This document shows, in pieces, positions 16,279 through 64,000 of a stretch of 64,000 bases of DNA. The stretch is from Meloidogyne chitwoodi (taxonomy: Eukaryota > Nematoda > Chromadorea > Rhabditida > Meloidogynidae): assembly GCA_015183035.1 (NCBI GenBank), contig JACZZP010000009.1, forward strand, positions 2,108,001 to 2,172,000, written 5' to 3'. Every line of letters starts with the position of its first letter. The stretch's first letter is position 1. The translations under genes and the position numbers were made by a program. The notes below the pieces were generated by a model that saw nothing but the letters and a program-made list of their open reading frames with translations, did no database searches and had not been told where the DNA came from.

Positions 16279-16475
16279 TTATATTTTATATTAATTTTAA
16301 AACATTTAAATAAAAAATGATCTCATTAAAAAAAAAATAATGTATTAGACAAATATTAAGATAAAAATTAAAAAAAATTTCTTGTGATTTTATTGATATT
16401 TTAAAAATTTGAAAATAAACTATTTAATTTTTATCCGTTGTAGGTCTTCTGACTCTGGGTATTCTGGGCGTGCTA

Positions 16476-16800
16476 GGAAAATTGGGCAGTGGAATATTGG
16501 GCAGTGAAGAAACAGTACAAAAACTTGCAAGAAAAATACAAAAATACATGAAAAATACAAAAACACTTTAAAAAAATTTTTGTTTTACTGATGTATTTGT
16601 GTTTTTATGTATTTTTGTATTGTATTTTTATTTTTTCATATATAATTTGAAAAACACAAAAATGTATTTTTATGTAAAAAACACAAAAATACATAAATCT
16701 TTTTTGTATTTTTGTGCTTCACATATATTTTTGTATTTTTCATGTATTTTTGTATTTTTCTTGCAAGTTTTTGTACTGTTTCTTCACTGCCCAATTTTCC
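16476..16800. mobile_element. Long hairpin with A/T-rich word repeats in its arms
   Basis: A near-perfect inverted repeat. The left arm from 16,476 (GGAAAATTGGGCAGT, with a second TTGGGCAGTGAAGAAACAG at 16,497) is matched by the complement of the right arm ending at 16,800. Inside the arms the word ACAAAAATAC is repeated, and the loop is of similar composition. No target duplication is obvious; the left end is partly duplicated (GGGCAGTG twice). Confidence 0.7.
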
Positions 16801-38298: not shown

Positions 38299-39013
38299 GG
38301 TTCCCTATTCTTTCGTCACTTAAGCATTCGTCACTAAACGTTTCGTCAAAATCTTTCGTCACTAATCCATTCGTCAAATTCTTTCGTCACCGAACAATTC
38401 GTCACTAAAACTTTCGTCACTAGTCATATTTTTAAAAAACATTATTTTTATAAAGAATAAATTCGTTTCCCTATTATTCGTCACTGAAGCATTGGGAGCA
38501 GTTCAACTGAGTCCGGCACAACTGAGTCCCGGCTCAACTGAGTAACCGTTTTAAAGTTTAACTCAAGTTTTTTCCTATATACGAATTATAAAAATATACA
38601 AATGATAGCTCATTTGAAAGAGCTCTTTGAGCTGAGTCGAATGAGATAAAAATAAATGAATTTGGTTGACTGTGAACTGAGCGTACTCAGTTGTGCCAGG
38701 ACTCAGTTGAGCCGGGACTCAGTTGTGCGGACTCAGTTGAGGTGTACCCTGAAGCATTTGTCAAAACCTTTCGTCACTGTACCATTCGTCACTAAACCTT
38801 TCGTCACTATAGTAAAAATTAGAGAGCAAACTTTTCAAAAAGCCGGGCCCAGATTTTTTCCCTGCTTACCACCCGGGCCGGTTTTCCGGGTAAAACCGGT
38901 TAGCCCGAAAAACCGGAATAAGTGACGAAAGGATTTGACGAAAGTTGTAGTGACGAAAGATTTTGACGAAACGTTTAGTGACGAATGCTTCAGTGACGAA
39001 ATTATCGGCCACC
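38299..39013. mobile_element. Element B: inverted-repeat transposon built of TTCGTCAC words
   Basis: The left arm starts GGTTCCCTATTCTTTCGTCA and the right arm ends TGACGAAATTATCGGCCACC; their inner parts (GCATTCGTCACTAAACG and its complement) match perfectly. The word TTCGTCAC or GTGACGAA recurs more than ten times. Flanks TTTTTATT at 38,291-38,298 and 39,014-39,021 are an 8-bp target duplication. It is interrupted by element D, and an inner GC-rich palindrome (GCCCGGGCC-like, about 38,840-38,915) sits in the right half. Confidence 0.85.
38494..38749. mobile_element. Element D: inverted-repeat transposon built of CAACTGAGT words
   Basis: 256 bp. Ends GGGAGCAGTTCAACTGAG and CTCAGTTGAGGTGTACCC form imperfect terminal inverted repeats. 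The words CAACTGAGTCC and GGACTCAGTTG recur in the two arms. The exact 9-bp target duplication TGAAGCATT lies at 38,485-38,493 and 38,750-38,758, inside element B. Non-autonomous, of MULE or Merlin type judging from the duplication length. Confidence 0.9.
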
Positions 39014-54350: not shown

Positions 54351-55213
54351 AGAGGGTATTTTTTATTTTATTTCCTTAAAAGAAGAAATAACTGTTTGTT
54401 TATCAAAATATAATTATTTTTATTATTAAATATATTAGAGGTTTCATATTGTGAAAATATATTAAATTGTTGATTTAATAATTCTTTAAAAATTTTTTTA
54501 ATTATGAAAAATTAAAAAATAACAATTTAAAAAAGGGAATTGTTATTTATTATATATGGAGTATTCTCGCTGGCCTTTTTAAAATCTCGTTGTTCATTAT
54601 TTTTATTAAAATTTGCAAATTTTAATAATTATATGTAGATATATTTTGATGAGCAGGAATTTTTATATTAAAATTACTTTTAAAAAATTAAATAATATTG
54701 TTATATTTAATCATAATTTATATAAATTTTAATATTTGTTTAGCATGTAATTTGAAATTAAAGTATTAAATTATGTAATTGATATGTATTTAATTTAATT
54801 TTTTATTTAATTTTAATAATTAATTTATTATTTAATAAATTAATTTATTAATAAATAGTAGTATAATAATATTAATTATTGATGTCAAAAATATTTAAAT
54901 AAATAATGTAAATGTGTATTTTTATTTTTTGGTTTATATAATATTAATATTTATTGACTTAATAAATCAATAGAAAGTTTGGTCATTTCTTAATGGCATT
55001 TTTCTTTATGTGAAAGAAAAATAAACTTTCTCAACTTTAAAAGATTTTAAGAGAAACACCCCTCCCATCACTGCTAGATTCTTCCGTGACACGACAATTG
55101 TACAGAGGGAAAATTGTACAGTGGACAATTGTACAGAAGACAATTGTACAGCGGACAATTGTACAGTGAATGTTGGTTAAGTGGTTTAGTTTCAATGGAA
55201 AATTAAATAATAC

Positions 55214-55409
55214 GGAATCAACCCTGAAAGACAATTCCCTGAATATCAACTCAGCCAAGTGGTCATTGCCAATTCGGTCAAGTAATAAAACACTCCTTGT
55301 AGGTCCAAGTTTGCACGGGACCAACTAGTTTAAAAAGGTTTGACCGAATTGGCAATTGGACCACTTGGCTGAGTTGATATTCAGGGAATTGTCTTTCAGG
55401 GGTGGACCC
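55214..55409. mobile_element. Element F: 196-bp palindromic element nested in E
   Basis: Near-perfect inverted repeat with ends GGAATCAACCCTGAAAG and CTTTCAGGGGTGGACCC, and an exact 9-bp duplication AAATAATAC at 55,205-55,213 and 55,410-55,418. Arms of about 75 bp share CCTGAATATCAACTCAGCC and a GCCAATTCGGTCAA core. Confidence 0.9.
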
Positions 55410-55701
55410 AAATAATACATGGCCTTTTTCCTTTAATGTCTTCAAGCGACGAAGGATAGTTTCAGATATAGGGTCAGAAATTGAAGGAGAAATAATGGTG
55501 AACTATAATTTAGAATTTTTTGAAACTAAATCCGAAAGAGGGAAAAGTCTGCTTATAAGAGGAGGTTTTGAATACTATTTTGAGGCCGAAAGCAGAAGTA
55601 TAGAAGGTATTGAATTCTGGAGATGTGTAAAGGTAGTTGGCGTCCGGAATATTTATCTTCGGAATATTCCTCTCCATATTTTCGGAATATTCCTCTTTTA
55701 G
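55402..55701 (+). pseudogene. FLYWCH-like zinc-finger fragment
   Basis: Open for 99 codons from the edge of element F; the meaningful part begins near NYNLEFFETKSERGKSLL and runs through GGFEYYFEAESRSIEGIEF to WRCVKVVG. This fits the first half of a FLYWCH domain (F...S.RG..LL..GY.Y........ WRC). The domain's downstream Cys/His residues are missing, and the frame then runs into word repeats. FLYWCH domains are known beside Mutator-like transposases, which fits its place in an inverted-repeat element. Possibly an N-terminal remnant of the transposase. Confidence 0.55.
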
Positions 55702-55950
55702 AAGATAATTCCTCTCCAAATAAAAATACAAAAACATAGTTTCCACTTTAAAAAATTTTTATGCATAAATTAAAGAATGATACAGCGAGCAGGCGATCCT
55801 CTTAATTATTTACGAAACGTTTCTTATAGATTGGCGCGTCATTAATTTCTTTTAAAAATGATCGTTCACTGTACAATTGTCCTCTGTACAATTGTCTTCT
55901 TTACAATTATCCACTGTACAATTGTCCCACTGTACAATTGTCCTAGCGCC

Positions 55951-56677
55951 GATTCTTCTATCACCCTCTGTCTATTTAATGTATTTTTTTCTAATTATTT
56001 TTTAGTAAGAAAGGGCATACGACATTTCGCCTCTACGGCAAAAAAACTACATTTCGTTTACCCGAGCCCACGATTTTTTGCCGTCGGACGAAATGTTGTA
56101 TAATTTCTGTCGACGAAATGTCTGGACACAAAGACAAATTTTACATTTTTTTCATTTCTCTGGGAAACTTGAAATATTTAAAATTATAATTTTTAAATAT
56201 ATTATAAAATAATTGAACATAACAACTCTGTTTATTAATTTTATCAAAAATTCAAAAAAGCAAATCCAATCAACGTTGTAATAGTATGCTCGCAAATGCG
56301 ATCTGAACACTGTGACCAAGCGGCAGGTTTTGTCTGCTCCCTTTCGGGCCTGAACCGTTGCCCCGCTCTTTAAACAACCAGGAGCACTAATGCTACCACC
56401 AATGCCCCTTGTTGACTTGGCCCTTGCTCTAGACACTCGCTCAATGCATACCCGTTAATGGATGCTTTTGCCTCCAAGTAGCTGGATTACTAACGTTCGC
56501 CACAACGCTAGGCGAAAGTGAATTAGAATTTATAGAATATATGATAATAAAAATAAAGGAAACAGTTTAATTTATTTTATTTTTAAAGTATGTTAGTTAC
56601 ATTGTTTGTTTTTAATTTTAATCACTTTTTCTCTTATTGTTAGTTAGAGTACTTTTTACTTTGAAATTCCTTATAAA
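55951..56677. other. Intergenic with a GC-richer repeat fragment
   Basis: 56,256-56,515 is less AT-rich; its left end is shared (inverted) with 16,876-16,905, and CGCTAGGCG at about 56,508 recurs at 28,188. The minus-strand frame over it lacks motifs. 56,030-56,125 has GACGAAATG words and their complement, a small palindrome. Confidence 0.45.
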
Positions 56678-56761
56678 ATGAAAACAGGACTTTCAAAATT
56701 ATTTGAACTTCAACCTGATCCTTATGATAATACACAAACAAAGTTTTTATGTATTTGCTTG
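56678..56761 (+). CDS. Possible orphan first exon
   Basis: 28 codons starting MKTGLSKLFELQPDPYDN, with normal amino-acid composition, and ending at a good donor (GGTTTG). The next plausible acceptor (TTTTAAG, about 56,802) leads to only a few codons before a stop. It may be the remnant of a lost gene or part of one I cannot assemble. It is 755 bp upstream of the lyase gene and not in continuity with it. Confidence 0.25.
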
Positions 56762-57515
56762 GTTTGTTTTTTAATATTTATTTAAAATTTAATTATTTTA
56801 AGTTTACAAATGTGAAAATTCTCTGAACTGACAATGAGCAAAGTGTGGAACACAAAAAGGGGAATAAAAATTGAAAAAAATGAGAAAGAGTGAATAAATT
56901 ATAAACATGTTTCTTAAGCTATGTAATATTCACTCATGTATATATTTTGTATTATTAAGCTTAAAAAGGAGAGAGTAGAGGAATAAAATGCTGAATTGTT
57001 GTGCCAGTATCTTTTACCCTGAAGATCAACAAACTTTTTTGTTTTATTTTTAAGAATACAATTAATCCAAGTTTTACAATTTTACAAGTTTGTTTCATAC
57101 ATATTTCTTCAGGTTTATTCTTTCCAAGTTTTACAATCCTCTCAAATATAAATTTTAGAAACAAAGCTTAAATTCGGTTTATCAACTTCAGAGAATTTAG
57201 GTGAATGCCCTCAAGCTTTAAAGTAGATTTCTGAGGCTATCTGGTGTTATTTTGTGTGTTGCTCTTTTGAGTCTACTCAATATGCCTCGACTGCCTTTAG
57301 AAATAGTCTGCTTTCCTCACTTAAATTTATTTTCTAAGCATCCCTTTGCGCTAATGCCAGTGTAATTAGCGTTAGATACTATGCTTAAGGCCGAATTTGT
57401 TTTATAAAATATTTTGAAAATGACGATATAATTTAAGTAAATCTATTGATTTAAATAAATGGCAATAAATATTGACTACAACCTCTAATCATAATAAATT
57501 TTAAATATTTTAGTT

Positions 57516-59605
57516 ATGTCCAATGTCTCTTTATCTTTATTATTGGCCCTTATTTGCATTCTAGTACAAGGCCAAGTGTTGATAGGCAAAAATATTCCTG
57601 AATTTTATGATAATTCTTGGGCAGAACTCTTTCAACAAGGATCTCTTGACAATGAAGGTTTTAAATTTTTTATAATTTTAATTTATATTGCATATGATGG
57701 GTATCAATATTTATACAATTAGTACACGTCGTTGTTGGGGAATAACATTTCTTTAAAAGTTACAAAAATTATTCATTTCCTCAATATTCAAGAGTTTATA
57801 ATGCAATATCACCATTTATTTACATTTAAAATTCAACTAAACTTTTATTAAATTAAAAAAAACATTTTTAAATTTTATATTAAATAATTTATAATAATTT
57901 TTTAAATTTTATATAATTACTAAAATTTATTTTATATAACAAATTGTGCTAATTTTATAACATTCAGAAACTTTAAGTCGCGTTGGAAGTGCTCTAGCTC
58001 AACTTCAAAACCAACATAAAGAAATCCCATATGAAGAGAATGCAGAAAATGATTTAAATAAAATTGAGGAAATTAACGAATTAAATAATCAAGTTGTTCA
58101 AATATAATATAAAATTTATCTCAAAATATAATTTAAGGAAAGTTTTACGTTGCAACTTCCATCAAATATTGGGCAAACGCCCGGTATTGCTTTAGATCCT
58201 CTCAATCGGCTAGTTCTTTTTCATCGGTCTGGACGTGTTTGGAATGAATTGTAAGTTATATAATTATTTTCATTATTTTATGTTTATTTTTTCTTACTTT
58301 TTAGTTCATTTGATGAAAACAACCATCTAAACAGGTATTCATCAAGTTTGATAAAACTTTAGTTTCTCAATTGTAAAAAAGTTTATTTATTTTACAACTT
58401 GTAAAAAAGTTTATTTATTTTTACAAATTGTAAAAATGCTGAATTAAAATTTACATAGTAAGGCTTTAAAATTTTACAAACTTTTTAAGATCTTTGGGAA
58501 TCATTCCAAATACAACAATTGCTGTTATTGATACAGAAACAGGCGCAGTGTTGGAAGAGCATGGTAAGGGAATGTATTATATGCCTCATGGATTAACCAT
58601 TGATTCCGATGGAAATATTTGGCTTACTGATGTTGGAAGTCATCAAGTTCACAAACTTGATAAAGACTTTAATGTTTTTTATTTTTGTAGAAAAATAAGT
58701 TTAAATTTATTATTTCAGTTAGTGATGAGTTTAGGCAAAAAGCTTGTTCCAGGGTAATATTTTAAGAATTTAAAAAAAATTATTTTCTATTTAGCTCTGA
58801 TGAAAAACATTTTTGTAAACCAACAGATGTTGCTATTGCAAGCACCGGAGAATTTTTTGTAGCCGATGGTTACTGTAATAGCCGAATAATGAAGTTTGAC
58901 AAAAAAGGAAAATTCCTCTGTCAATTTGGACAGCCTGATTGTATTATAGAGGGACAATCTAAAATTAAATAAATATTTGTTTCAGCCAATGAAACTCCAA
59001 AAAATGGCGAATTTCTTGTTCCTCATTCATTGACACTTATTGAAGATCTCAATTTGCTTTGTGTTGCAGACCGTGAAAATGAACGGTAAATTGTTTTTAA
59101 CTTTTCCTACAGAATTCTGTTTTTTAGAGACAGAATTTCTTTCATAAGAGAGAATTCTGATTTTTTATTTTTCTAATTTTAAGTATTCAATGCTTTTCTG
59201 CCGGATTAGAAGGTGCTCAACATCATCATAGGCGTGCGTACGTTCCAACAGGCACTTTCTTCACAAAAGCAGAAAATATTGGACGGGTCTTTGCTATTAG
59301 AGAAAAAGGTTAATTTTATTATTTTTAAATTCTTTAAATTAATTTTTAGAACACTTTCTCGTTGGTGTAACTAATCAAGATCAGGGCAATCAACTCGAAT
59401 CTCAAGTTTTTGTAATGGATATGAACACTGGAAAGGCTAACAGCTTTGCTAAGGTATTATTATAATTTTAAAAAATTAATTTTTTGATTTTTAGGGTCTA
59501 TTAAATGCCCATGCACTTGCAATTAGCGATAATGGCGAAATCTATGTTTCACAAATTGAGCCAAACCAAATTGTAAAATTTAGTATTTCATTAAACGAAA
59601 ATTAA
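57516..59605 (+). CDS. pgal-1: Peptidylglycine alpha-amidating lyase (PAL), 11 exons
   Basis: Exons: 57516-57657, 57968-58092, 58138-58250, 58305-58334, 58490-58673, 58719-58753, 58795-58940, 58986-59085, 59184-59308, 59350-59453, 59495-59605 (exon 2 may end at 58095). 404 residues. The start follows TTTTAG by two bases, as for trans-splicing; a signal peptide (SLSLLLALICILVQG) follows. The six-bladed NHL-type propeller has the family's zinc histidines in MPHGLTID, VPHSLTL and NAHALAIS, the arginine in FHRSGRVW and the tyrosine in ADGYCNSRI. PAL cleaves peptidyl-alpha-hydroxyglycine to the amidated peptide and glyoxylate, the last step of neuropeptide amidation, in the secretory pathway. Here it is a stand-alone lyase without the monooxygenase domain, as known in nematodes. 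A charged 40-residue insert (exon 2) lies before the propeller. It looks complete. Confidence 0.93.
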
Positions 59606-60578
59606 GAGTGAAAGCTCAGAAACGAGAAGAAAAATGTATAAAAAAATATTTTAATAAAGCATCTCTATTTTGATATCTCTTCCTCTCTTTTACATACTTT
59701 ATGTTCCCTTTTATTTTACAAATTTAAAATATATTATATACCTACACAAAAATGGCGGGCGAATGATTTACAAATGATGGCGATAAAATTTAAATTTTGT
59801 TTTTATTTAATCACAATATTTAATTATAATATATTAACCAGTGGATGAGTTAAAAGGAACGATGTTGGTAGTAGTATTTTTGAAAACAGAGCAAAAATTA
59901 TTAAATTTTTATAAGAGATACTTAACAGTATTGAAAATATTGTTCGACTCAGTTTTCGGAGCTCTTTTAAATGACACCTTACTTGTTCAAACGGTCCAGA
60001 AATAAAAATCTTGTATAAGTCACAACATTCAAAATGCTGAACTAAAATCAACAATGCTACCAACCTCTTTTAATTTTAATTAAAAAGTAATTATATTTTA
60101 CTTGTATTTAATAAAACCTCCAATGTCCAAAAGTAAAAAAATATAAAATAAATAGTAATTAATATTTTATTAAATTTATATAAATAAATTTAATTTTTAA
60201 TATTTAAATGATTCATATTTAATTAATTATTTTACAATTTAAAAATAAAAACAGCAAAATTTCTAATAAAAAAATTTATGATTTTAAATTTTGATAAAAA
60301 TATGAATAATATTAATTTAAATAATCTAGTTATTTAATATTAATTTTATTAAATAAAAAAAAAAGAAATTTATTTTATTTTTTCCAACAATTCTTTTTTT
60401 AAATTTTTATCCGTAAAGGTTGTATTAACAAAAATTGTGTTTTAGCTTTTTCTGATAAATTAAAACAGAACTAAAATCTGAAATGAAAATTTTTGGACAT
60501 TTTTAGGAAAATAAATAAATATTAATATTTAAATAATTTTAAGAATTATATATTTAATTTAAATTAATTAAAATTAAA
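59606..60578. other. Intergenic region, no gene seen
   Basis: An AATAAAG-type polyadenylation signal for the lyase is at 59,653-59,659. The minus-strand frame at 59,824-60,063 has no motif. The rest is AT-rich. Confidence 0.5.
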
Positions 60579-61417
60579 ATGTTCTTTATTTTTGTATTAT
60601 TTTATATTTTGATGCTTTTGGATTATGGAGGTTTTATTAAATAATTAATTTTAATTAAATAGGCTGGTATTAAAGCCAGATTAGTTCAGTAATTATTTTT
60701 AAGAAAAGTCAGTTATTAAATTAATATTATTAAAAATAAATATTTTTATTAATTTTAGATTCATATAATTGTACCAATGGATTGGAACATAGTAAAATTA
60801 ATTTAAAACCTAGGGGAACTTGCGATACTGAAGACGAATTAGTTAAGGAAAGGGCAAAGTTATTAAATATAACTGAAATTAAATGTATGACTATTAAATG
60901 TGAAGATGGTAGTAGTCTTAAATCTTGTGGTAAATGTACTTTAAAAACAATAATGGTAAAAGGCGTTAAATGTGAATGTTCTGAATGTACCTCTAATCTT
61001 TGCAATTCTGGCTATTCTGGCAGTTCTGAAAAACCAAAAAATTTTGAAACAACTGGAAAACCAAAAAATTTTGGAACAACTGGAAAACCAAAAAATTTTG
61101 GAACAACTGGAAAACCAAAAAATTTTGGAACTTCTGAAAAACCAAAATTGTTTGAAACAACTGGAAAACCAAAAAATTTTGGAACTTCTGGAAAACCAAA
61201 ATTGTTTGGAACAACTGGAAAACCTGCAATTTCTGGAACTTTTGGCATACCTGGAAATGCTGGAACTTCTAGCAAACCTGGAAATTCTGGAAGTGTTAGA
61301 AATAATGTTATTGGAATTATGTCACAATTTAATTGGGGCATTGTTTTGTGTTTTTTAGTTATTGGAAGTAAATTTAATTATATTTTTTATTTTAAAATAT
61401 TTTTTATAATTTGTTGA
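60579..61417 (+). CDS. Ly6-like secreted protein with 9-residue repeat stalk
   Basis: Exon 1 60579-60630 (signal peptide MFFIFVLFYILMLLDYG) splices with GT...AG to exon 2 from 60759; the frame runs to 61,417. Mature part: about 85 residues with ten cysteines ending CSECTSNLCN, the ending typical of Ly6/uPAR three-finger domains (C..LCN). Then come about nine repeats of a nine-residue unit like GKPKNFGTT (61,018-61,290), and a hydrophobic C-terminus (NWGIVLCFLVIG), as for GPI anchoring. Another exon after GGAA|GTAAATT at 61,365 cannot be excluded; in that case the last 17 residues change. It is probably a surface or secreted protein; ligand unknown. Confidence 0.65.
61018..61290 (+). repeat. 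27-bp minisatellite coding the protein stalk
   Basis: Units such as GGAAAACCAAAAAATTTTGG plus AACAACT, about ten copies, the first seven closely alike and the last three diverged (GKPAISGTF, GIPGNAGTS, SKPGNSGSV). All lengths are multiples of 3. Confidence 0.85.
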
Positions 61418-61637
61418 AAGTATTACTTAATTTAATTTTATTATTGTTGTAAAATACATATATTAAAAATTTAAAAACAAAATTTAAATTTATCAAAAAA
61501 ATATATTTTTTATTATTAGCTTTATTCATCCAAACATGAACATCTGCTGTGAAAATGAGATTTAAAAAAAATAATAAAATTTATATATTTAAATTGATTT
61601 TTTAATAAATATTATTTGTATATTTTAAAATATTTTT

Positions 61638-61893
61638 GGGGTCAACCCTTTTGATCAACACCCTTTTGATCAACCCCCTTTTGATCAACGCCCTTTTGAT
61701 CAACTCCCCTTTTGATCAACACTAATTTTTTCTTTTAAACGAATTTTTACGCCAGAATATAGTGTTGATCAAAAGGGGAGTTGATCAAAAGAGCGTTGAT
61801 CAAAAGGGGGAGTTGATCAAAAGGGGGTTGATCAAAAGGGGGTTGATCAAAAGGGTGTTGATCAAAAGGGTGTTGATCAAAAGGGGTGGGCCC
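61638..61893. mobile_element. Element G: inverted-repeat transposon of TTGATCAAAAGGG words
   Basis: 256 bp. Ends GGGGTCAACCC and GGGTGGGCCC; the left arm has five copies of CCCTTTTGATCAAC-like words and the right arm eight of the complement, separated by a 50-bp loop. The 8-bp duplication ATATTTTT is at 61,630-61,637 and 61,894-61,901. Each word contains the palindrome TTGATCAA. Confidence 0.88.
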
Positions 61894-61923
61894 ATATTTT
61901 TATATTTAATAAAAACAAATTTT

Positions 61924-62593
61924 GGCACTTGTCAAGATGGGACGGCTTTTTTTGCGGACTTTTTTTGCGGACAAATTATTTTTTGATTTTTTCCCAAGGC
62001 AATAAGAGTGTACCTTGACTAACAAATATGTGTAAATGTTTTTTACCTTGTCATTTATATTTTTGTTAATCAATTATCCAATAAAATGATTCAAACTCTT
62101 AAAAATTTTACTTTGTTACAATTATACACCAAAATAAGCTTACCCGATGATGAATTTCAACATTGGCTTTCTAGTCTTGGTATGCTTCACAAAACAAGAA
62201 CATGTATTTGTGGCTCAGAAATGCGTAAAGAAAATTATAAGCAATATGGACAATGGCGTTGTAAAAAAACAACATGTAGAAAAACAAAAGGGGCTTTGGT
62301 TGGCACTTTCTTCAATGGTTTTAAGCTAACTTTCAAACAAGTGATACAGGTAAATTTTGCCGATTATGTACTTTATACCATTTGGAAAATTTCCTTCTAA
62401 GATAATGTATTTTTGGTCGAGAAGACCAGTTATACATATAAATCAAAAAGAATTGCAAAGAGAAATTGGTGTGTCAAGGCAGTCAATAATTGATTGGCAA
62501 AACTTTCACTCTTATTGCCTTGGGAAAAAATCAAAAAATAATTTGTCCGCAAAAAAAGTCCGCAAAAAAAGCCGTCCCATCTTAACAAGTGCC
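61924..62593 (+). mobile_element. Element H: truncated Merlin/IS1016-type transposon
   Basis: 670 bp with ~88-bp terminal inverted repeats (GGCACTTGTCAAGATGGG ... and its complement near 62,575-62,593, AAGTGCC at the end). An exact 8-bp duplication CAAATTTT is at 61,916-61,923 and 62,594-62,601. Between the arms is the N-terminal half of a transposase. Merlin elements have 8- or 9-bp duplications, which agrees. Confidence 0.88.
62086..62515 (+). pseudogene. Merlin-type transposase, N-terminal part only
   Basis: Exon 1 62086-62349 and exon 2 from 62402 with GT...AG. Exon 1 has a zinc-ribbon-like region: CICGSEMRKENYKQYGQWRC, then KKTTCRKTKGALVGTFF. Exon 2 begins IMYFWSRRPVIHIN and goes on to EIGVSRQSIIDWQNFHSY, the helix-turn-helix region found just before the catalytic core of IS1016/Merlin (ISXO2-like) transposases. 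The DDE core is absent: the frame enters the right inverted repeat at about 62,507. An internal deletion derivative that cannot act by itself. Confidence 0.75.
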
Positions 62594-62754
62594 CAAATTT
62601 TAATAATTAAACTTTATATCAAATGTTTATTTCTATGTGTAATAAACAGATTAACCTCGTGATTTATGAGATAAATAATTTATCGTAGAATTATAAAAAA
62701 GAATTTTAATAAATATGATTAAATAATTTATTAAAAAACTATTTTAAAAAATTT

Positions 62755-62990
62755 GTTTATTGACGAAAAGTCCGTTGACATAAAGTCCAATGAAGAAAGG
62801 TATTGACGAATGGTCCATTGACGTAAATTCCGTTGACGAGAAGTCGTGCCACCAAGAAAAATAAACTTTCTAACGGCTCCCCGACTTTTCGTCAATGGAC
62901 TTTACGTCAACGGACCATCCGTCAATACTTTTAGTCAATGGACTTTATGTCAACGGACTTTTCGTCAATGAACAAATATTTTTTAAAAAA
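62755..62990. mobile_element. Element I: inverted repeat of TTGACGTAAAGTCC words
   Basis: The left arm reads TTGACGAAAAGTCCGTTGAC, ATAAAGTCC, ...; the right arm is its complement to about 62,985. The word (A/G)TTGAC-(G/A)-(T/A)AAAGTCC recurs with small changes. Outer parts (AATATTTGTTCATTGACG) are also mirrored. Target duplication not resolved. Element J is a second copy. Confidence 0.75.
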
Positions 62991-63167
62991 GTTAAACGAG
63001 AATTTCGTTTTAAATGTTACAGTTTATTGTAAAATATACTTATATTAGTTATAGTATGTATTTAGTTATTGTAATTAGTAATGGAGTGGTTATGGTAACT
63101 TAAATTGCGTGTTGATCTTATTGGTGGTGATTTCTAGGGAGGTCAGTCCAGTTATGCTTCTTTTTAA

Positions 63168-63540
63168 CGGTAAAGGACGATTCAGAGTCGGCTGATTCAG
63201 AGTAGCTCGTATAACTTTTTTCATTTTAAACTTTTTCAAATAATTTTTATATCATTCGAAAGAGCTCCAAAAGTGGAGTCTTTTCATCAATTGGACCGAT
63301 CAGATCAGTTGATTTTAGAAAAAGTTACGCCCGAAAAACACGAAAATCAAAATTTTCCACTTATCACGCTATTACTTTTTGTTGAGTGATCTGATTGGAT
63401 CGGTCAAATTAGATAACTTTATCCGCTTATCGGATGCTTTCGATTAATAAAAGAACTATTCAGATCGGTTAAGAAATAAAAAAGTTATAACCAAAAACAA
63501 CCTGCTACTCTGAATCGGCCGACTGAATCATCCCCTACCC
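63168..63540. mobile_element. Element C, copy 2 (intact)
   Basis: 373 bp. Ends CGGTAAAGGACGATTCAGAG and CTGAATCATCCCCTACCC; the words GATTCAGAGT/ACTCTGAATC are repeated in the arms. The exact 9-bp duplication TCTTTTTAA is at 63,159-63,167 and 63,541-63,549. The reverse complement matches the split copy at 38.2-39.1 kb. Confidence 0.9.
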
Positions 63541-63574
63541 TCTTTTTAATTAATATTATTTTCTTTAATTTTTT

Positions 63575-63795
63575 AAAAAATATTTGTTCATTGACGAAAA
63601 GTCCGTTGACATAAAGTCCATTGACGAAAAGTATTGACGGAAGGTCCGTTGACGTAAAGTCCGTTGACGAAAAGTCGTGCCACCTACCTGAAAACTCCAT
63701 GACTTTTTGTCAATGGACTTTACGTCAATGGACCATCCGTCAATATTTGTTAATGGATTTTAAGTCAACGGACTTTTTGTCAATGACTAAATATG
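63575..63795. mobile_element. Element J: second copy of the TTGACG/AAAGTCC inverted repeat
   Basis: The left arm from AATATTTGTTCATTGACG (63,578) is nearly identical to the arms of element I, including the central GTCGTGCCACC; the right arm is complementary to 63,785. I and J flank element C copy 2. Confidence 0.75.
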
Positions 63796-64000
63796 CATAT
63801 ATGTAATTGAGGAGTTTGTCTATATGTTTGTCCGAGATTTTAAGTAAACTGATTGGGGAAGTAGAAATGGGAGCTTTTATATGTGTTTAAAAGTTCGATA
63901 CTATATAAACAACGTATTTTATCATTCTCTTGTTCTACGAGCAGCGCCAACTGTCTGTGACTCCAACGTCTACGAGAAACGTCAACGGTCAGCTACACTA
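63796..64000 (+). other. Window end: TATA-like string and start of a GC-richer unit
   Basis: ACTATATAAACAACG at 63,899-63,913 is followed by ATTCTCTTGTTCTACG and a less AT-rich run to the window end. This resembles a promoter with a downstream transcribed unit, possibly of an LTR element. Too little is visible to decide. Confidence 0.3.

Follow-up and report, generated by a model that had tools for sequence, protein, structure and literature searches.

Why should several inverted-repeat elements of unlike sequence, found in one stretch of a nematode genome, all carry arms assembled from a short word repeated in tandem? The question is raised by 64,000 nucleotides of Meloidogyne chitwoodi contig JACZZP010000009.1 (assembly GCA_015183035.1, positions 2,108,001 to 2,172,000), hereafter the window, in which an earlier note had marked at least six such families, designated B, D, E, G, C and I/J; inverted arms built of tandem words are indeed seen for all of them. 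Introns and AT-richness mark the sequence as eukaryotic. We followed these families through the source genome (47.48 Mb, 30 contigs), where L-numbers designate the loci examined outside the window; copy numbers are lower bounds, and the searches score best candidates only. The best explanation, to which we give a probability of about 0.72, is that most word families are foldback transposons of the Mutator-like element (MULE) kind with a FLYWCH transposase, and that their words may serve as docking sites turning over together with the FLYWCH domain.

The word families share a common plan, in which a target duplication is followed by a terminal block of 7-8 bp and then by an inverted arm made of a repeated 14-16 bp unit that holds a family-specific word, with the interior beyond. 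The terminal blocks are unlike, the two ends matching at just 3-6 of 8 positions, and several ends, as seen by eye, finish in CAC at positions 6-8. Compared with shuffles, the arms were tandem (P<0.05) in 35 of 38 cases from 19 word-family elements, which had been chosen since their arrays were already seen; the exceptions are L060, with one arm, and L046, with both. A less biased start is the MULE domain: among 26 loci found through this domain alone, arrays occur on both sides in 13 (10 distinct families) and on one side in three. An array lying by L058 was traced to a small element distinct from that MULE copy. Merlin-type controls gave an array at P<0.05 in 1/20 arms (10 elements), and a T3 miniature inverted-repeat transposable element (MITE) in 0/2; with 19 of 20 Merlin-type arms free of arrays at that threshold, tandem arms are ruled out as a general trait of the inverted-repeat elements of this genome. 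Other copies of E, I/J, B and G, the families searched, retain the words as well, which is not what slippage confined to single copies would leave.

The feature common to the families is a pitch of about 15 bp, not palindromy. With word patterns picked by eye, 186 of 202 intervals in 19 elements of 12 families measure 13-17 bp (median 15), and 12 of the remaining 16 measure 26-31 bp, or about two pitches. Several words had been described as palindromic; a perfect palindrome is present in TTGATCAA and ACAATTGT only. One element (L030:2484-3177), with like ends GGCTCTACTTC and the 8-bp duplication AAAAATTT, has a word period of 19 bp (GAGTCCAAT) and lies outside the 15-bp rule; despite this period it is counted among the word-family elements that are tandem compared with shuffles. 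The target duplications proved as exact as the earlier note had claimed, although in the window they accompany five families (B, D, E, G and C) instead of four. Where terminal motifs fix the ends, an exact duplication of 8-10 bp flanks 30 of 34 testable elements (from the window and other copies, each site counted once, arm pairs sharing fewer than eight 10-mers excluded), versus 3 of 1122 pairs in a swapped-flank control under the same rule. The counts per group are I/J 7/8, B 3/3, T1 (a terminal pair presented below) 6/7, T6 4/4, E 4/4, T3 4/5, Tm1 1/2 and L046 1/1, L005 being the T1 copy without a duplication at its fixed ends.

The link to MULEs comes from coding relatives. MULE domains lie between word arms in family C (L052), D (L048) and E (L068), and between arms of further words at L046, L047, L050, L053/L054, L056/L057, L060/L063 and L064; the window copies are non-coding derivatives. 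A FLYWCH exon precedes the MULE domain above the Pfam cut-off in L046, L048, L053, L057, L063 and L064, and under it in L068 (21.2 versus 23.6 bits). FLYWCH matches were also located in L050 and in L052, which codes for the MULE and part of the FLYWCH, and none was seen at the MULE locus L047. The D relative L048 has the ends of D with a related word (TCAGTTGAGTC), and a MULE fragment matching that of L048 occurs in L071 with D's word (CAACTGAGTCTGCA) arrayed on one side. Inside window element E, a remnant of the transposase FLYWCH exon that retains its start (55474..55641, + strand) is 92% identical to L068 over 48 aa and matches Pfam FLYWCH with an E-value of 6.7e-05 at 23.4 bits, slightly below the 23.6 cut-off. 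For B, one decayed relative (L097) combines a B end with the inner arm of B and two B words; its transposase is represented by the FLYWCH part only, in an exon that resembles that of E. The FLYWCH at C10:956801 was ruled out as a second B-linked transposase, as in L098 it sits between arms of word ATTTGGGCAGTG. A protein search with the L053 FLYWCH exon returned two relatives, 79% and 49% identical, and a comparison of the L048 FLYWCH exon with solved structures gave no match at E up to 1.

Different words are found on ends that stay constant. Four words accompany the terminal pair T1 (NGGTACAC / NGGAGCAG, N being G or C): CARYTGAGTC in window element D and L048, CAGTTTACCGC in L044 and L005, TTAGCCCC in L060 and L063, and TTAGGCGC in L064. 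Another pair, GGGAGCGA / GGGGGGGT, is found with two word variants (L053/L054 and L056/L057), and ends of the form GGGRTCAA / GGGYCCAC are common to G and a MITE without arrays. The interior of the CAGTTTACCGC family (L044:214-622) occurs at about 30 other places, many of them without arms (e.g. L003:2919-3306), and arms and interior have therefore been combined separately.

Word replacement on constant ends, which the earlier note had suspected as the origin of new families, is borne out by two sister pairs in which the change affects both arms. Between L053/L054 and L056/L057, the terminal blocks are identical, and the arms agree at 155/157 and 154/157 positions within an element versus 145/157 and 142/157 between elements. 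L063 and L064 agree over the first 12 bp of one end and the first 11 of the other, their arm alignments are identical at 92/151 and 101/137 positions, and the word cores of L064, counted in one arm, differ from those of L063 at one position in 7/7 and at another in 5/7. The L063/L064 pair is also a mosaic: L063 element positions 686-1205 are identical at 519/520 sites, versus 1413/1731 (82%) for the other aligned positions, a contrast reached by 0/200 block shuffles. The exchanged tract covers the coding sequence ahead of the MULE and the first MULE part, with FLYWCH and arms outside it, and the simplest reading would be a recent conversion or recombination between lineages already unlike in word and FLYWCH. 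Over the exons aligned, the protein differs most in FLYWCH: amino-acid differences affect 8/80 codons of the FLYWCH exon versus 7/407 of the other exons compared in the first pair (P 0.0009) and 16/75 versus 23/366 in the second (P 0.0002), where the exchanged tract contributes to the contrast.

This contribution is one of several points that weigh against our explanation. FLYWCH is also richer in synonymous differences (P 0.017 and 0.08), and its amino-acid to synonymous ratio does not differ significantly from that of the other exons (P 0.34 and 0.13); positive selection is therefore not demonstrated. The arm differences between L063 and L064 are not significantly concentrated in the word cores (15/26 in 49/112 columns, P 0.12). 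Ten of the 26 MULE loci show no array within 1.5 kb on each side, and when reading frames from the MULE loci were compared by tblastn with the window and 27 loci, no transposase was obtained for I/J or G. Finally, the earlier note had named one transposase terminus serving several word families as a finding that would support its idea. The shared end pair exists, but a single transposase for it is unsupported: the MULE domains of L048 and L060 agree at 36/75 aligned residues, as distant as families with other ends, and L048 is not grouped with L060/L064 in a MULE tree built from this genome's sequences and mostly unresolved around the T1-end transposases. The end motif is shared, and service by one transposase does not follow.

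How would such arms work? That the word is a multiplied transposase-binding site, as had been suggested, is a plausible idea for which Galileo offers an experimental precedent (PMC3688188), although in the present elements we infer the binding. The FLYWCH domain would bind the word, and several transposase molecules could sit side by side on one array, spaced by its pitch of near 15 bp. A row of words would thereby make a short recognition sequence specific, as was suggested for Galileo on the basis of binding data (PMC3688188), while the terminal block would position the cut. Families may then split as word and FLYWCH change together and the terminal block and catalytic core stay, the new word being spread across both arms through conversion or unequal exchange, and coding segments would still be exchangeable between lineages. 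As a general mode of diversification, this switching, in which the finger and its docking words would co-change on a constant block and a constant pitch of about 15 bp while catalytic segments still recombine, is a tentative proposal to which we give somewhat less than even odds. If true, the genome would hold many transposase-end pairs that no longer cross-react, and with them a natural record of the DNA-recognition code of the finger. L063/L064 and L053/L057 form near-isogenic natural pairs, with constant ends and differing word and FLYWCH, that are suited to a binding assay. The matter bears on the coexistence in one genome of many related transposons, which may escape mobilisation by one another, and on the birth of satellite-like arrays from transposon arms.

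The arrays might instead be passive, arising by slippage or unequal exchange and evened out by conversion between arms, with words that drift unread and a FLYWCH exon that just lies near faster-evolving ends. Higher synonymous change near the ends would fit this view, as would the 3' non-coding part of L053/L057, the most divergent of the pair (66-74% over two segments), and the B arm that ran away into a long array. Unread words should, however, hardly hold a pitch of about 15 bp across 12 families in which they differ, and diverged copies nonetheless keep copies of their word, one terminal pair is retained while words change, and 19/20 Merlin-type arms exposed to the same genome have no array (P<0.05); we therefore regard a purely passive origin as unlikely. 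Alternatively, the words could be read by a second factor, encoded by the element or by the host, in the way that the target motifs of the anti-silencing protein VANC of VANDAL elements are tandem repeats that differ among related elements and evolve with VANC (PMC5735166). Those motifs are described from introns and upstream regions and not from inverted ends (PMC5735166), and the aligned exons of L053/L057 and L063/L064 fit one FLYWCH-MULE protein, although the search for a second gene was not systematic; this role has in our view very little chance of being the right one.

For part of the families, a different superfamily has to be considered, since Merlin ends start with GG and are flanked by 8-9 bp duplications (PMC8101967), and the ends of G, I/J and B start with GG as well. 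Merlin-type domains occur at 16 places in the genome, and one arm of the Merlin-type L039 has a 15-bp periodicity (P 0.0066). B, however, has a FLYWCH-bearing relative, the Merlin-type elements seen have near-identical termini where the word families have unlike blocks of 7-8 bp, and the Merlin element within the I/J copy L041 inserted there separately and has ends and a duplication of its own. None of the 16 IS1595-type matches was seen using the ends of G or I/J, in the part of the G and I/J copies that was examined. A non-autonomous Merlin nature of G, I/J and perhaps B is in our view distinctly improbable. The MULE assignment covers most word families, I/J being provisionally placed there by its B-like ends and word and G by its layout only.

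In the window, the elements are often nested. B (38299..39013; ends GGTTCCC / GGTGGCC, word TTCGTCAC, 8-bp duplication TTTTTATT) encloses D (38494..38749), which has ends GGGAGCAG / GGGTACAC, word CAACTGAGT and the 9-bp duplication TGAAGCATT. At C26:2198163-2201846, matches to the B word span about 3.7 kb, a B arm having grown into a satellite-like array; the 801 bp examined there (L099) contain 50 words at a pitch of 14-15 bp, on which higher-order steps near 58 and 73 bp are superimposed. E (55085..55950; ends CGTGACAC / GGCGCTAG, word ACAATTGTACAG, 8-bp duplication GATTCTTC), whose coding relative is L068, contains a separate 196-bp MITE at 55214..55409 (ends GGAATCAA / GGGTCCAC, 9-bp duplication AAATAATAC) with arms free of a word array and further copies at L005, L006 and L008. 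Further inverted elements of small size, with GGAAAATTGGGCAGT or GATTTGGGCAGTG as their word, occur at window positions 16475-16800, in L095 and at L098:643-1136, the last copy surrounding a FLYWCH-like exon remnant.

The two hairpin elements that the earlier note had drawn as I and J do not stand, since each joins arms of two different elements. Positions 62875..63684 form a single element of 810 bp (IJ-a; ends GGCTCCCC / GGTGGCAC, word core CGTCAA), 99.6% identical to L080, with family C nested within it. It is positioned between an IJ-b arm (62739..62853, the left portion of the former I, with 96.5% identity to the L041 and L091 arms) and the start of an IJ-b element (63694..64000, the right portion of the former J), which is 98.7% identical to L041 over 307 bp and continues beyond the window. 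The window IJ-a copy is the one without a duplication among the eight I/J copies tested. B and I/J have in common GGTGGC / GGYTCC-like ends and a CGTCA core. The nested element C (63168..63540; ends CGGTAAA GGA / GGGTAGG GGA, word CGATTCAGAGT, 9-bp duplication TCTTTTTAA) is the known family Tm1, as detailed below, and its presence points to a root-knot nematode as the source. Tm1 words and one Tm1 end are also present inside the five other I/J copies checked (L078, L079, L080, L082 and L084), and the Tm1 insertion has therefore been copied as I/J cargo. Tm1 is thereby amplified within a unit of about 809 bp, with duplications at the outer I/J ends.

G (61638..61893) has ends GGGGTCAA / GGGCCCAC, the palindromic word TTGATCAA and the 8-bp duplication ATATTTTT. 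Next to it lies a separate Merlin-like element that is not of the word-array kind (61924..62593; ends GGCACTTG, 8-bp duplication CAAATTTT); its 94-bp arms hold two copies of TTTTTTTGCGGAC each and are not tandem. Its reading frame has no Pfam match, and L045, which has the same ends, gives an IS1595-type domain match under the cut-off. Four Merlin-type copies elsewhere (L031, L032, L033 and L034), of about 2.19 kb, have an open 179-aa frame and each its own 8-bp duplication, which suggests that they moved recently.

The earlier note knew of no named system with such arms, yet the architecture is already known and named: long inverted arms of short tandem repeats define the foldback structural class, to which these elements conform, and Tm1 (PMC3169594), Muta1/Muta5 (PMC5225508) and foldback elements generally share this build. 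C, D, E and the coding families have FLYWCH and MULE between their arms and duplications of 8-10 bp, as in Phantom-type elements. One of the closest known systems is Tm1 itself, a Mutator/foldback family of root-knot nematodes described by Gross and Williamson (PMC3169594), with one to nine tandem units of about 14 bp, a motif B (GGA), 9-bp duplications, a FLYWCH-MULE transposase and terminal motifs A1 (CGGTTAA or CGGATAA) and A2 (GGGTAGG, read inward). The ends of C match A1 at 6/7 positions (CGGTAAA) and A2 at 7/7 (GGGTAGG), GGA is present at both ends, and units like CGATTCAGAGTCGGC, few in the window copy, resemble Tm1 motif C (CGATTCAGTATCCGC), while the coding copy L052 has about nine Tm1-type units per arm and a duplication with one mismatch in 8 that fails the exact test. 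C thus has the layout of Tm1, with unlike 7-bp end blocks, GGA, tandem units and a 9-bp duplication, and is identified with it from these motifs. In contrast to the single word lineage, varying by species, of the Tm1 paper (PMC3169594), about a dozen words are found here, four of them on a terminal pair that is not that of Tm1.

In Muta1 and Muta5 of Aedes aegypti, the terminal motif measures 8-10 bp and is accompanied by nine subterminal repeats of 12-15 bp (for Muta1, 12 bp plus a spacer of 3-4 bp), duplications of 8-9 bp and FLYWCH, and such repeats occur in 10/12 long-arm MULE families of that mosquito (PMC5225508). Muta1 transposes in yeast (PMC5225508), whereas the elements described here are known from their sequence alone; the available parts of that paper hold no comparison of words among families sharing a terminal motif. 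Galileo resembles the word families in its foldback-like arms, whose tandem repeats contain sites for the transposase DNA-binding domain, and differs in belonging to the P superfamily, in its THAP domain and in far longer repeats; binding to Foldback and Phantom repeats is stated there as untested (PMC3688188). VANDAL elements likewise combine a short tandem motif that changes between related MULE-type elements with a sequence-specific protein changing alongside, but this protein is an anti-silencing factor instead of a transposase and the motifs are not inverted ends (PMC5735166). Tetris and DAIBAM of Drosophila virilis share their outermost arm ends, and probably one mobiliser, and their arm repeats became satellite-like arrays as the B arm did here, although the repeats are of about 220 bp and Tetris is apparently non-autonomous (PMC4079207). 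Within the available parts of the sources, our literature searches found no report of foldback MULEs in which one terminal pair bears different words, and parts of this picture may be in print. What the M. chitwoodi elements add to these systems is the occurrence of four words on one terminal pair, a pitch of about 15 bp whatever the word, and sister pairs in which the ends are kept and the word has changed.

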